Assembly: GCA_903882875.1 (NCBI GenBank)
Contig: CAIRYQ010000039.1
Coordinates: forward strand, 1 to 33,878
Direction of reading: 5' to 3'
Source: an uncultured Spartobacteria bacterium
Lineage (GTDB): Bacteria > Verrucomicrobiota > Verrucomicrobiia > Chthoniobacterales > Chthoniobacteraceae
Length of the DNA stretch: 33,878 nt
The position numbers and the translations under genes are program-made. Below, in pieces: positions 15,222 through 19,821 of the stretch. Each line of letters starts with the position of its first letter. Position 1 is the stretch's first letter. Under the pieces are notes generated by a model. The model was not told where the DNA came from and did no database searches. It was given only the letters and a program-made list of their open reading frames with translations.

Positions 15222-15318
15222 TTTGCGGATAATCAGTCCCTTGCTCCCAGTGTGATAAGCCAAGTGAACCTTGGCCCCTCCCCCATCAACAGCTCTGCGC
15301 CTCGTCGGGGGCTGGATG

Positions 15319-15807
15319 TTAGTCACACCGCTTTCCGCCGCCGCATACCCCGAGCACCACGCAGCCCAAGGCAAGGAATATCAGGCACTTCTTCTGCCCT
15401 TGCTGGTAACTCTGATAGTCTTTCCAACTGGAGATCGGCGTATTGCCGACGGTGAGGGAGCAGGTCTCAATGGTCGAGACGTTGCCCAGCAGTCCGCGGC
15501 AGGGTTTCTCGATTTCCTTCTTGAGCGCCTCCATGGTCACCCTGGCACCGGGCACGATTTCGCCCCTGCCCAGCAGTTGGCCGGGAACGTGGACGGCAGG
15601 TTGATATGCCACGTCAGGCTGGCCATTCAGCCAGATCCGCACGGTGAATTCGTTGCTACCCCTGTTGCAGGTCGCGGTACTGGAGGCGATGACACCGGAA
15701 ACGGTTTGAAAATCAGCCGGCGTTGGCGGCGGGCGGAAGTACATCCAGCCGAGGAAGCCAGCAATGGCGAAAGTGATGACGGTGAAGCCGAGGCTCTTTT
15801 GTTTCAT
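15319..15807 (-). CDS. Small protein with two membrane segments, unknown family
   Basis: It has 162 residues from ATG 15805-15807. An N-terminal span (about 5-23, SLGFTVITFAIAGFLGWMY) precedes a domain with paired cysteines (TCNRG, KPCRG, ETCSL). A second hydrophobic stretch (LIFLALGCVVLGVCGGG) lies at the C-terminus. The middle reads like a DUF3592-type fold (VSGVIASSTATCNRG and then VRIWLNGQPDVAYQPAV), which is a tentative likeness. The frame is open through the upstream repeat array, but that extension is an artefact of the repeat. The start has no strong ribosome-binding site. Confidence 0.6.
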   Translation of the reverse strand: MKQKSLGFTVITFAIAGFLGWMYFRPPPTPADFQTVSGVIASSTATCNRGSNEFTVRIWLNGQPDVAYQPAVHVPGQLLGRGEIVPGARVTMEALKKEIEKPCRGLLGNVSTIETCSLTVGNTPISSWKDYQSYQQGQKKCLIFLALGCVVLGVCGGGKRCD

Positions 15808-16010
15808 GGTGTCATTGCGGTATCTGTCGTTGGAGAATGGTGAAGCTGCGGACGATGGTAGCAGCCGGTACGCCATTTCCTGCCGTGCGGTTTCGTCCCC
15901 CGGTGGATTTTTCCATTCGGGGCGAAATCCACGGCGCGTCAAAGCTCCGTGGTTCGCACGTTGTCCGCTCCAGTGCCATCCGGACGCGGGCGGCATCCAC
16001 GACTTCGGCG

Positions 16011-16369
16011 GCCCGTTTGCAAGGCTCAGAGCGTTGCGCGCGGGGCTCGGAGGGCCGTTTGCAAGGTTCAGAGTGTCGCGCGCGACGTTCCGAGGCTTGC
16101 GCGCCGGGTTCCGAGCCTTGCGGTGCGAGGCTCCGAGCGTTGCGCGCGGGGCTCGGAGGCCCGTTTGCAAGGTTCAGAGTGCCGCGCGCGACGTTCCGAG
16201 GCTTGCTCGCCGCGTTCCGAGCCTTGCGGGCGAGGCTCCGAGGGCGGCGCGCGAGGCTCGGAGGGCCGTTTGCAAGGCTCAGAGTGCCGCGTACGACGTT
16301 CCGAGGCTTGCTCGCCGGGTTCCGAACCTTGCGGTGCAAGGTTCCGGGTGTTGCGCGCGAGGTTCGGAG
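16011..16369. repeat. Seventeen-unit tandem array of 21-22 bp words with a 105-106 bp higher-order period
   Basis: Each unit is a 12-14 base spacer plus a core like G(G)(C/T)TC(C/G/A)GAG. Five unit types (A-E) recur in fixed order. The A units start at 16032, 16138, 16243 and 16349, giving periods of 106, 105 and 106. The array opens with a B unit (16011-16031) and ends after A4 (16349-16369). Copies are diverged but clear. Cores of E (CTCCGAG) and A (CTCGGAG) are reverse complements, as are CCTTGC in E and GCAAGG in B, and each C unit holds a self-complementary core. Because the words are mostly 21 bases, frames are open through it on both strands; I do not regard these as genes. The flank 15808-16010 holds nothing I can name beyond an 8-bp hairpin (15903-15910/15925-15932). 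Confidence 0.9.
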
Positions 16370-16388
16370 GGCGCAAAAACGCGGAGCA

Positions 16389-16671
16389 TCACTGCCACGA
16401 GGCGATGTCGTCCGGTGCCTCGCTGGACGCGGGCTTGCGGAACTTGCCTTCGTAGCCTTTCCCGCCGAGGATGCCGTCCTTGCCGGGCGAGAAACGAAGT
16501 AAGCCGCCCACTCATCTTTGCCGACATTGGCGGCAATGCGGCGACGGGAGAGCGGATGAGATGCTCCGGCCCGGCGAGGTCGGAATAGACGGTGCTAAGG
16601 CCGAGCGTCCTGGAATTGTCCGTGGTGAACACGACGCAATGCTGATGGCCCACCAATCTATTGGGAGCCAC
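16389..16671 (-). pseudogene. Frameshifted remnant of an unrecognised protein gene
   Basis: Protein-like sequence runs through three minus-strand frames in succession. The first is VVFTTDNSRTLGLSTVYSD and then LAGPEHLI. After a shift comes RRIAANVGKDEWAAYFVS. After a second shift comes SPGKDGILGGKGYEGKFRK, ending APDDIASWQ and TGA at 16389-16391. Reading in one frame gives low-quality sequence, so two small indels are likely. I do not recognise the parent family. The remnant overlaps the end of the protease gene at its 5' side and abuts the 21-bp word array at its 3' side. Confidence 0.45.
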
Positions 16672-17539
16672 TGGGAATAATTCTCAGTTGTCCGCTGTTT
16701 CGTAAGCTTGCAGAGATTGCTGTTTCTACTGTTAGGAAACTCGGATGGTTAAGGACTTCCGTAATTTTGTAATGGGGAGTCACAATCGCGATCCCCATGT
16801 TCACTTGTGCTGTTGAAAGGTCCCTTTCTTGAGCATCATCAACCTTATTCGCTGAAACGTCGTAGTGGCCGTGAACAATCCCAAGTAGAATGTGAACTGG
16901 CCCTTTGAAAAGCTGCAGTTTTCCATCGATCAACACTGTTGTTCCAAGGTTCACAAAAACGGGCGATCCGCTGAGACCTCCTATAGAGCGGGCTTCGATG
17001 AGAAAAGCCGGAATAGGACCGAAGTCTTTCGTTACCACAGGCTCCTCGTCCATCGCGGCAATATTGCCAACCCGAATGATTGGGATGTTTCGTGTCTGGC
17101 CGTGATGGTGTCGAAACAAACCAATAATGATTACTTCGTCGCCAACACCAATGCCTCCAAATCTCTTTTGCACATCCGCCGTTGGGAAGTCTGTCGCCGG
17201 AATCATCATGTGATCAAAGCCCTCGGCAATCGGAAACGGAGCCATTGCGATATCGACGTTTTGTTCAGTTGGGTGCGTGAACCAAGCATTGATTGGAATG
17301 CTTAGCCACTGAGCAGTTCCATTGGCGAAATTTATTCTTAGGCAAACTTCGTTTATTCCCAGACGGCGGATACCATCAATCACATGGCGCGCCGTGATCA
17401 GGTAAACCGAGTTCGGATTGTTTCCGGCGGCAGGTGGTTTGGAGCAGTAGAAGGCTGTTCCAGCTAGTCGGTATTCGCCGTCGGCCATCCGGTAGCCAAC
17501 GAACACTACACATTTTCGAATCGTTTCTGAAACTCGCAT
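16658..17539 (-). CDS. Trypsin-like serine protease-fold protein on an AT-richer patch
   Basis: It has 293 residues from ATG 17537-17539. The chymotrypsin-fold triad is visible: H52 in YLITARHVID, D97 in VDIAMAPF and S190 in GGLSGSPVF. There is no signal peptide or membrane span, so it may act in the cytoplasm, unlike HtrA/DegP enzymes. No PDZ domain follows. Base composition is visibly lower in GC than the neighbours, which suggests recent acquisition. Such solitary trypsin-fold proteins are often in accessory or defence-related regions, but no partner is seen here. A TTG start at 17575 would add 12 residues. Confidence 0.75.
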   Translation of the reverse strand: MRVSETIRKCVVFVGYRMADGEYRLAGTAFYCSKPPAAGNNPNSVYLITARHVIDGIRRLGINEVCLRINFANGTAQWLSIPINAWFTHPTEQNVDIAMAPFPIAEGFDHMMIPATDFPTADVQKRFGGIGVGDEVIIIGLFRHHHGQTRNIPIIRVGNIAAMDEEPVVTKDFGPIPAFLIEARSIGGLSGSPVFVNLGTTVLIDGKLQLFKGPVHILLGIVHGHYDVSANKVDDAQERDLSTAQVNMGIAIVTPHYKITEVLNHPSFLTVETAISASLRNSGQLRIIPSGSQ

Positions 17540-17584
17540 TTGGCTTAAGTCGTATGATCGCGCCGCGGCCCACAACTTCGGCGG

Positions 17585-17707
17585 CTACGGCTTCTTCCCT
17601 TCGAGCAGAAACTCCGTGGCTTGCGCGACGTCCTTGTCGCCGCGGCCGCTGAGGTTCGCGATGATGAACTGGTCGCGGCACATCTTCGTGGCGCGCTGGC
17701 TCACGCC
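17585..17707 (-). pseudogene. Duplicated 3' end of trpB (trpB remnant)
   Basis: These 123 bases match the last 123 bases of the intact trpB gene (18613-18735) at 111 positions, including a 46-base identical block and the stop codon. Read in the trpB frame it gives GVSQRATKMCRDQFIIANLS, then [20 protein letters not shown] and stop, against [20 protein letters not shown] in TrpB. Eight of 40 residues differ, so the copy is drifting without function. It lies in the same orientation as trpB and marks the far border of the PIN module. Confidence 0.9.
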
Positions 17708-17904
17708 TTCGGCGGTTCTTCGCGCACGATGCAGCTTTCATTCGCATCACGATGGACGAATGACACGAGCGGGTGTTCGGCGTCGGTGCGTTCCGTTTCC
17801 CGACGGCGATAGTGGGCCATCAGTTTGGCGGCATCGTAGTCGCAATCGCGCGCGACAGCTTCGCGGTGCCGGTGGATTTCAGCGATGATTTTGTTTTCGG
17901 GCAT
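17701..17904 (-). CDS. Small protein, second tandem paralog next to the PIN toxin-like gene
   Basis: It has 67 residues. It is paralogous to its upstream neighbour: MPENKIIAEIHRHREAVARD here against MHENETIAEIHRARAEHAKE there, and both end CxxREEPPK(A/T). The N-terminal I-x-E-I-x-x-x-R-E pattern and following C-x-Y-D resemble small proteins often found beside this PIN subfamily and presumed to be antitoxins. The stop codon lies inside the first bases of the duplicated trpB tail. It follows the previous stop after only 3 bases (GCC). Confidence 0.6.
   Translation of the reverse strand: MPENKIIAEIHRHREAVARDCDYDAAKLMAHYRRRETERTDAEHPLVSFVHRDANESCIVREEPPKA

Positions 17905-18612: not shown

Positions 18613-19821
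<1,209 letters not shown>

Follow-up and report, generated by a model that had tools for sequence, protein, structure and literature searches.

The tandem array at positions 16011–16369 of the window (the whole analysed stretch of 33,878 nucleotides from an uncultured Spartobacteria bacterium) is not an isolated object but one of many tandem arrays in its genome. On balance, we favour the reading that it is a dispersed, non-coding bacterial minisatellite, growing by slippage and unequal exchange. It has the organisation of a minisatellite, with tandem head-to-tail units in the class of about 10–60 bp, outside coding sequence. The family of words to which it belongs has at least seven arrays in this genome and is itself one of several whose step is 21 bp (or else 42, and sometimes 22).

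The minisatellites of bacteria are commonly regarded as independent accidents. In this genome, numerous arrays whose words are unrelated have one step, equal to two turns of DNA, and a lean to palindromes, and this uniform step lends more interest than the single array in the window. It raises a testable question, namely what sets the repeat length in non-coding bacterial DNA. Candidates are the physics of slippage where hairpins form, or selection of helically phased sites by a protein.

The array in the window

The features of the locus are as follows.
16011–16369, no strand: tandem array of 21–22-bp units with a 106-bp higher-order cycle (TRF, segmentation, unit types)
16106–16148, plus strand: first E/A junction, where the 3' part of a 22-bp unit is able to pair with the unit that follows (loop GGT)
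16290–16295, plus strand: CGTACG variant in the third C-type unit (sequence)
16327–16341, plus strand: hairpin CCTTGCGGTGCAAGG in the third E-type unit (sequence)
15319–15807, minus strand: left neighbour ORF, described in the earlier note as a small membrane protein; no Pfam match
16447–16572, no strand: 126 bp to the right of the array, shared with the congener G004 at 97% identity

The earlier note, made from the sequence alone, had described the array as contiguous 21–22-bp units, and TRF, segmentation and unit identities all confirm that it is real. TRF reports a period of 106 (3.4 copies, 90% matches, score 563) at 16018–16372 and, inside it, a period of 21 (11.5 copies) at 16022–16263. 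Segmentation gives the same count of 17 units, starting at 16022: 14 are of 21 bp, two are of 22 bp (at 16106 and 16317), and the last, which fades past 16369, is shorter and was cut at 20 bp. A degenerate unit at 16001–16021 stands ahead of them. The five unit types in the fixed order A-B-C-D-E, through three cycles, are likewise borne out, with a cycle of 106 bp; units five steps apart are 85% identical, against 62–64% at steps 1–4.

The E3 hairpin, with arms CCTTGC and GCAAGG about a GGT loop, is present in the sequence. The change of the third C-type core from CGCGCG to CGTACG is present too, but the symmetry that it was said to keep has its centre shifted by one base. A CRISPR array, with identical repeats and unique spacers, is rejected in agreement with the earlier note: the units are contiguous, recur in cycles and leave no unique spacers. 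A scan of the eight neighbouring proteins found no Cas protein and no Rep or Par family match among those eight. Four of the six frames are open over the array and two have stops. The explanation offered for the open frames, that the words are multiples of three, is wrong, since the 106-bp cycle shifts the frame each cycle.

The left ORF starts about 200 bp from the array. In G004, the congener with the most similar TrpB (97%), the right-hand 126 bp is kept, and to its left stands an ORF, presumably formyltetrahydrofolate-deformylase-like, and no array. Similarly, at the C106 locus the gene left of the array is matched in G004 at 92.5%, and no array was detected there. Some loci therefore vary between species in whether they have an array, and others retain theirs.

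It may be added that the window contains, at 17588–17713, a 42-residue fragment that is 76% identical to the C-terminus of TrpB, just beyond an intact trpB (18613–19821), and that G004 carries a similar fragment (C148:7172–7318).

The word family

The window array was searched against its own assembly (5.78 Mb, 129 contigs). The 20 matches, in which both strands and overlapping pieces are counted, resolve into seven arrays, on contigs C39 (the window), C19, C114, C86, C80, C112 and C78; a further short match (C120:38175) was left out of this count. The adjoining genes differ from array to array. Four of the seven (C114, C86, C112 and C78) reach a contig end, and such arrays probably limit short-read assembly of these genomes. 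Comparison of unit types shows that the A-B-C-D-E order is held in C39, C19, C114 and C86, that C80 is mixed, and that C112 and C78 are near-monomeric. One flank of the C19 and C114 arrays is common to both over 84 bp (87% identity), and a search at E ≤ 0.001 finds these 84 bp nowhere else in the genome. A pattern of a single 20-base unit with 3 mismatches did not discriminate (259 matches vs 323 for the reversed control).

Beyond this genome, the array DNA was matched at E ≤ 0.001 in none of 56 near relatives (12 candidates scored per genome) and in one of 212 other genomes of the order (three candidates per genome). The one matching genome, G084, carries at that locus a 21-bp array whose word resembles that of the window array and has the same phase. 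A profile, R1, was then used (42 positions, 37 two-unit segments from eight arrays; G084 supplied 4 of the segments and G012 none). It is matched at E ≤ 0.01 by 16 of 213 genomes of the order, source genome included. Clustered matches together with 21-bp arrays occur in the source genome, in G084, where the match arises partly by construction because G084 segments are inside the profile, and in G012, from the same family and another genus. In the other 13 matching genomes, the single locus inspected in each has no 21-bp repeat by TRF. Among 387 genomes from the phylum, only the source genome matches at E ≤ 1e-4. Candidates per genome were 30 for the order and 16 for the phylum, and weak arrays may be missed in these counts.

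The word family is therefore dispersed, and extends beyond the source genome. The earlier note had suggested a minisatellite-type element, which is supported, and had allowed that it might be private, which is rejected by the seven arrays here and the arrays in two of 212 other genomes of the order. It would have been dismissed there as without function had its words occurred nowhere else and its copies shown no covariation; the words are in fact found at other places too, and the E/A junction shows weak covariation (see below).

An origin from phages or plasmids was considered and rejected: a blastn search set for distant similarity found nothing among 50,697 records of phages and 72,556 of plasmids. 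Viral contigs gave no match to two exact array patterns. A degenerate two-unit pattern, run on a collection of species genomes, matched one planctomycete contig; this was taken as chance, the stretch having no TRF repeat and, by eye, the look of a transport-protein gene.

In the least altered units (those of G012, C39, C114 and C86), the archetype is roughly GGTTCSGAACC followed by TTGCGCGCAA. These are two alternating palindromes, with centres half a unit, or about one helical turn, apart. The best complementarity axis is identical in 7 of 9 arrays (111 units), the exceptions being C112 (rank 2) and C78 (rank 8). For the window array this axis test on units succeeded and a palindrome test on the consensus failed (p 0.89), probably because a 21-bp consensus mixes the five unit types.

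Compensatory changes, which the earlier note had proposed to look for in the copies, are weakly present at the E/A junction and absent from positions 3 and 9 inside units, which do not covary over the same nine arrays and 111 units. At the E/A junction (nine copies), both-side changes are seen in 3 of 12 pairs, against 0 in six slid controls; 16 of 500 shuffles are as high. One of these three pairs is unpaired in 7 of the 9 copies and another in 3 of 9, and 104 of 500 shuffles do as well in further pair types. Two of the three window junctions and one of the two C19 junctions have the loop GGT; its reverse complement, ACC, stands in C114 (twice), C86 and C80.

Other arrays with the same step

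An autocorrelation scan for tandem repetition (periods 8–70) was run on 761,063 bases of the source genome. It found 41 arrays, as against 0 in one copy of the same sequence shuffled within 200-bp blocks. Nineteen have period 21, eight 42, two 22, one 41 and one 43, while the remaining ten have periods of 8 (three times), 13, 15, 27, 45, 51, 54 and 66. The period class 21/22/41/42/43 thus holds 31 of the 41, in a sample that is non-random and includes stretches picked for array or repeat matches. In a sample of contig starts (C1–C20, 352,650 bases) all 11 arrays have a period of 21, 42 or 43, one of them being that of C19, which was known beforehand. TRF results on much of this sequence agree in direction. 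The scan is not exhaustive, since two arrays of the window family, C114 and C86, escaped it.

Only 5 of the 31 class arrays (window included) match the window family at E ≤ 1e-6; the other 26 do not. Other words are in common between L135 and L161, L140 and L162, L150:516 and L165, and L055:1 and L163. When the class arrays of the source genome are taken together with 7 from relatives, 16 of the 38 have a palindromic consensus at p<0.05. At L161:13992–14631 (C94) one 21-bp array is followed, head to tail, by another of a different word: CCCTCCGCCCGTCCAACTCTC in about 15 copies and then CCAGCCGGGGCCTTCCCCGAA in about 13, up to the contig end.

The same scan found 9 arrays in 698 kb of relatives, of which 5 have period 21 or 42, and another 7 in a further 275 kb, of which 2 have period 21; the G084 and G012 stretches, fetched for their arrays, were left out of these counts. 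The class density is hence 7 in 973 kb, or about one per 139 kb, in relatives, and about one per 35 kb in the contig starts of the source genome without the C19 array. G004 gave no array in the 200 kb scanned, from an assembly of about 750 contigs that may lack arrays.

The gene finder called 15 of the 31 class arrays coding and 16 non-coding, a split that was not used because several of the 15 look like ORFs that run on into arrays through the open frames of these (L055, L054 and the window). A few weak 42-bp cases (L152, L160 and L167) may truly be coding.

Two other ideas about the 21-bp step were tried; one has little support and the other was dropped. Phase-summed curvature as its cause gives a mean z of −0.54 over 27 arrays, a slight lean to curvature computed with assumed wedge angles; three arrays are more curved than all or nearly all word-shuffles, and most are not. 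An excess at lag 21 outside arrays, which could have marked decayed arrays, is found at lag 12 and in all relatives as well, and so looks like coding periodicity.

Two further families add to this picture. The L165 family occupies eight places in the source genome and none in 56 relatives, and its arrays also have one-sided flanks in common. The second is a 42-bp array at C120:164163–164404, which is matched on four more source contigs (C95, C19, C21 and C123) and in G002, G006 and G014, as well as over 67 bp in G004; the matches in G003 and G020, and most of those in G004, fall on the end of an adjacent dispersed element and not on the array. One locus was inspected in each of G002, G006 and G014, and all three are 42-bp arrays. 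In the source genome, G002 and G006 the array is upstream of the same gene, which has no Pfam match and is 72% identical at the nucleotide level between the source genome and G002 (about 1 kb) and 89% between G002 and G006. The arrays of G002 and G006 are 93% identical. Counted by eye, the copy number at this one locus differs among these three congeners: 4 in the source genome, 10 in G002 and 4 in G006.

The palindrome of the 42-bp family was aligned in eight rows (seven distinct) from four genomes, chosen from 26 matches to show variants. Of its cells 96.4% are paired. Both-side changes occur in 3 of 8 pairs (0–1 in slid controls; 94 of 500 shuffles as high). Only 3 of 500 shuffles reach the covariation score; for further pair types there is no excess, 479 of 500 being as high.

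Origin of the arrays

On the minisatellite reading, units would multiply through replication slippage and unequal exchange, probably assisted by hairpins at the palindromes, and the families would disperse through ectopic recombination or break-induced copying. Strand switching at hairpins is a route to perfect palindromes; here it would keep the palindromes perfect and flip the loops, and would account for the palindromic words, the both-side changes and the flipped loops without selection, though not for the step. The 21-bp step probably reflects two turns of DNA. Several observations support this reading: the family is dispersed beside unrelated neighbours, with five-unit blocks repeated together; flanks are common on one side only (C19/C114 and the L165 family); the loops flip between GGT and ACC from array to array; copy number changes by whole units at an orthologous place in the 42-bp family; G004 has no array beside the stretch to the right of the window array; and the frame-shifting 106-bp cycle argues that the array is non-coding. 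Against it, plain slippage does not predict a common step such as that of 31 of the 41 arrays, with mostly unrelated words. In addition, the window word is recognisable in another family of the order, which outlasts neutral expectation unless it is spreading, and the 42-bp family holds its place and palindrome across species, which could mean selection.

The main rival, a serious alternative that we hold tentatively and that was also among the options of the earlier note, is that the arrays are putative platforms for dimeric DNA-binding proteins. Palindromes 21 bp apart would lie on one helix face, and the dimers could form a filament or a loop beside a gene; the various words would each serve a protein of their own, or a single protein would read shape and spacing. 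The step of two helical turns, the dyad axis in the same place in 7 of 9 family arrays and the consensus palindromes of 16 of 38 class arrays are consistent with this, as is the 42-bp family, whose both-side changes keep the palindrome and whose arrays lie upstream of one gene common to three species. On the other side, 22 of the 38 arrays have no significant consensus palindrome, the main axis is lost in C112 and C78, positions 3 and 9 do not covary within units, and the seven arrays of the window family adjoin differing genes.

A bolder and more doubtful proposal is that palindromic arrays of any sequence are built and maintained in intergenic DNA throughout the order by a dedicated cellular process, using a DNA-binding protein or copying enzyme that works in 21-bp steps. 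If true, sequence would be free while step and dyad symmetry were fixed, giving a class of DNA element defined by geometry and not by words.

For the arrays, a mechanism like that of REP elements and their RAYTs, in which a transposase mobilises and amplifies non-autonomous palindromic units that settle in tandem, is rather unlikely. The families are dispersed and their units palindromic, and the C114 array has an IS110-type transposase gene some 1.1 kb away. There is also a dispersed palindromic element of about 91 bp that lies within 500 bp of 7 of the 31 class arrays, more than in random placement (mean 1.5, maximum 6 in 2000 trials); arrays and element both favour intergenic gaps, to which random placement is blind. 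Moreover, no copy occurs in any of the stretches examined around the window array, and that array, by eye, has no GTAG.

The 91-bp element, GTGGAACGCGTCGCTCC...GGAGCGACGCGCTCCAC (for example at L051:3048–3165, C19), was seen in its own right in 25 merged copies in the 761 kb of source genome and, by the same criteria, in none of 60 stretches of relatives. A 242-bp query containing it gave 74 genome matches, which count both strands of the palindrome and so stand for fewer places, and some of them are at contig ends. A 26-bp end of it occurs in G003, G004 and G020. At L158:14062–14471 (C120) it flanks a 42-bp array on both sides, like a composite unit.

The earlier note had also proposed a structured RNA and a comparison of its fold with shuffled controls. 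The window array does fold far better than shuffles on its plus strand (z −9.1 and −11.9 in two runs), and also on the minus strand (z −5.6) and as DNA (z −6.1). Six of the seven family arrays fold better than shuffles on both strands, and the weak E/A covariation points the same way. As a property of the family, a structured RNA is nevertheless not supported, and we regard it as very unlikely for the window array: strand preference varies, C114, C86 and C80 having the better fold, by a little or by a clear margin, on the other strand; for the homogeneous array C78, shuffles do better than the array on both strands (z +5.5 and +1.9); mixed unit orientation in a self-complementary word yields the fold; further E/A pair types do not exceed shuffles clearly, 104 of 500 equalling them; and nothing in 15300–17600 comes near an Rfam gathering score. 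That the window array encodes a heptapeptide-repeat protein, as its open frames and a unit of seven codons might suggest, is scarcely credible and was rejected, because the 106-bp frame drift leaves no frame that repeats its peptide, while other arrays have 22- or 43-bp periods and 3 of the 31 class arrays have no open frame.

Among described repeats, REP/BIME elements (GTAG and CGTC families), as presented in the available part of PMC3733652, are likewise dispersed, palindromic and between genes, and the same part describes the verrucomicrobium Opitutus terrae as rich in GTAG repeats. The present arrays differ from them in being regular and head to tail, without a GTAG tag, and in having many word families with one step. 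By eye, GACG (CGTC on the other strand) occurs in the D-type units of the window, not at the end of a single palindrome. In the open literature we found no class of bacterial arrays in which the step is fixed at 21 bp and the words are free; the available parts of PMC4210602, PMC4060949, PMC9426551 and PMC3733652 do not describe one. The closest precedents in those parts include the 54 short tandem repeats of Methylacidiphilum fumariolicum SolV (PMC4210602) and the intergenic tandem repeats behind structural variants in Planctomycetota (PMC9426551).

The arrays resemble the intergenic minisatellites or VNTR loci of bacteria in having head-to-tail units of tens of bases between genes, and in the change of copy number seen for the 42-bp family. 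They differ from them in the one 21-bp step common to arrays with unrelated words, in the dyad-symmetric units and in the 106-bp higher-order cycle. Iterons and partition-site arrays consist of direct repeats of similar length (about 20 or 43 bp), some of them palindromic, and a replicon has one or a few such sites, next to its rep or par genes, whereas here there are dozens of arrays with different words. The heptanucleotide STRR arrays of cyanobacteria have a constant unit length, several sequences and positions between genes throughout the genome. The present arrays share all of these features, with units of 21 bp in place of 7; no 7-bp sub-period was reported in them by the scan, which starts at 8 bp and has lag 14 available. 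Heptamer arrays do occur in relatives, as (CCCAACG)n at L196:1–173 in G004 and (CGAACTC)n at L229:1–124 in G048.
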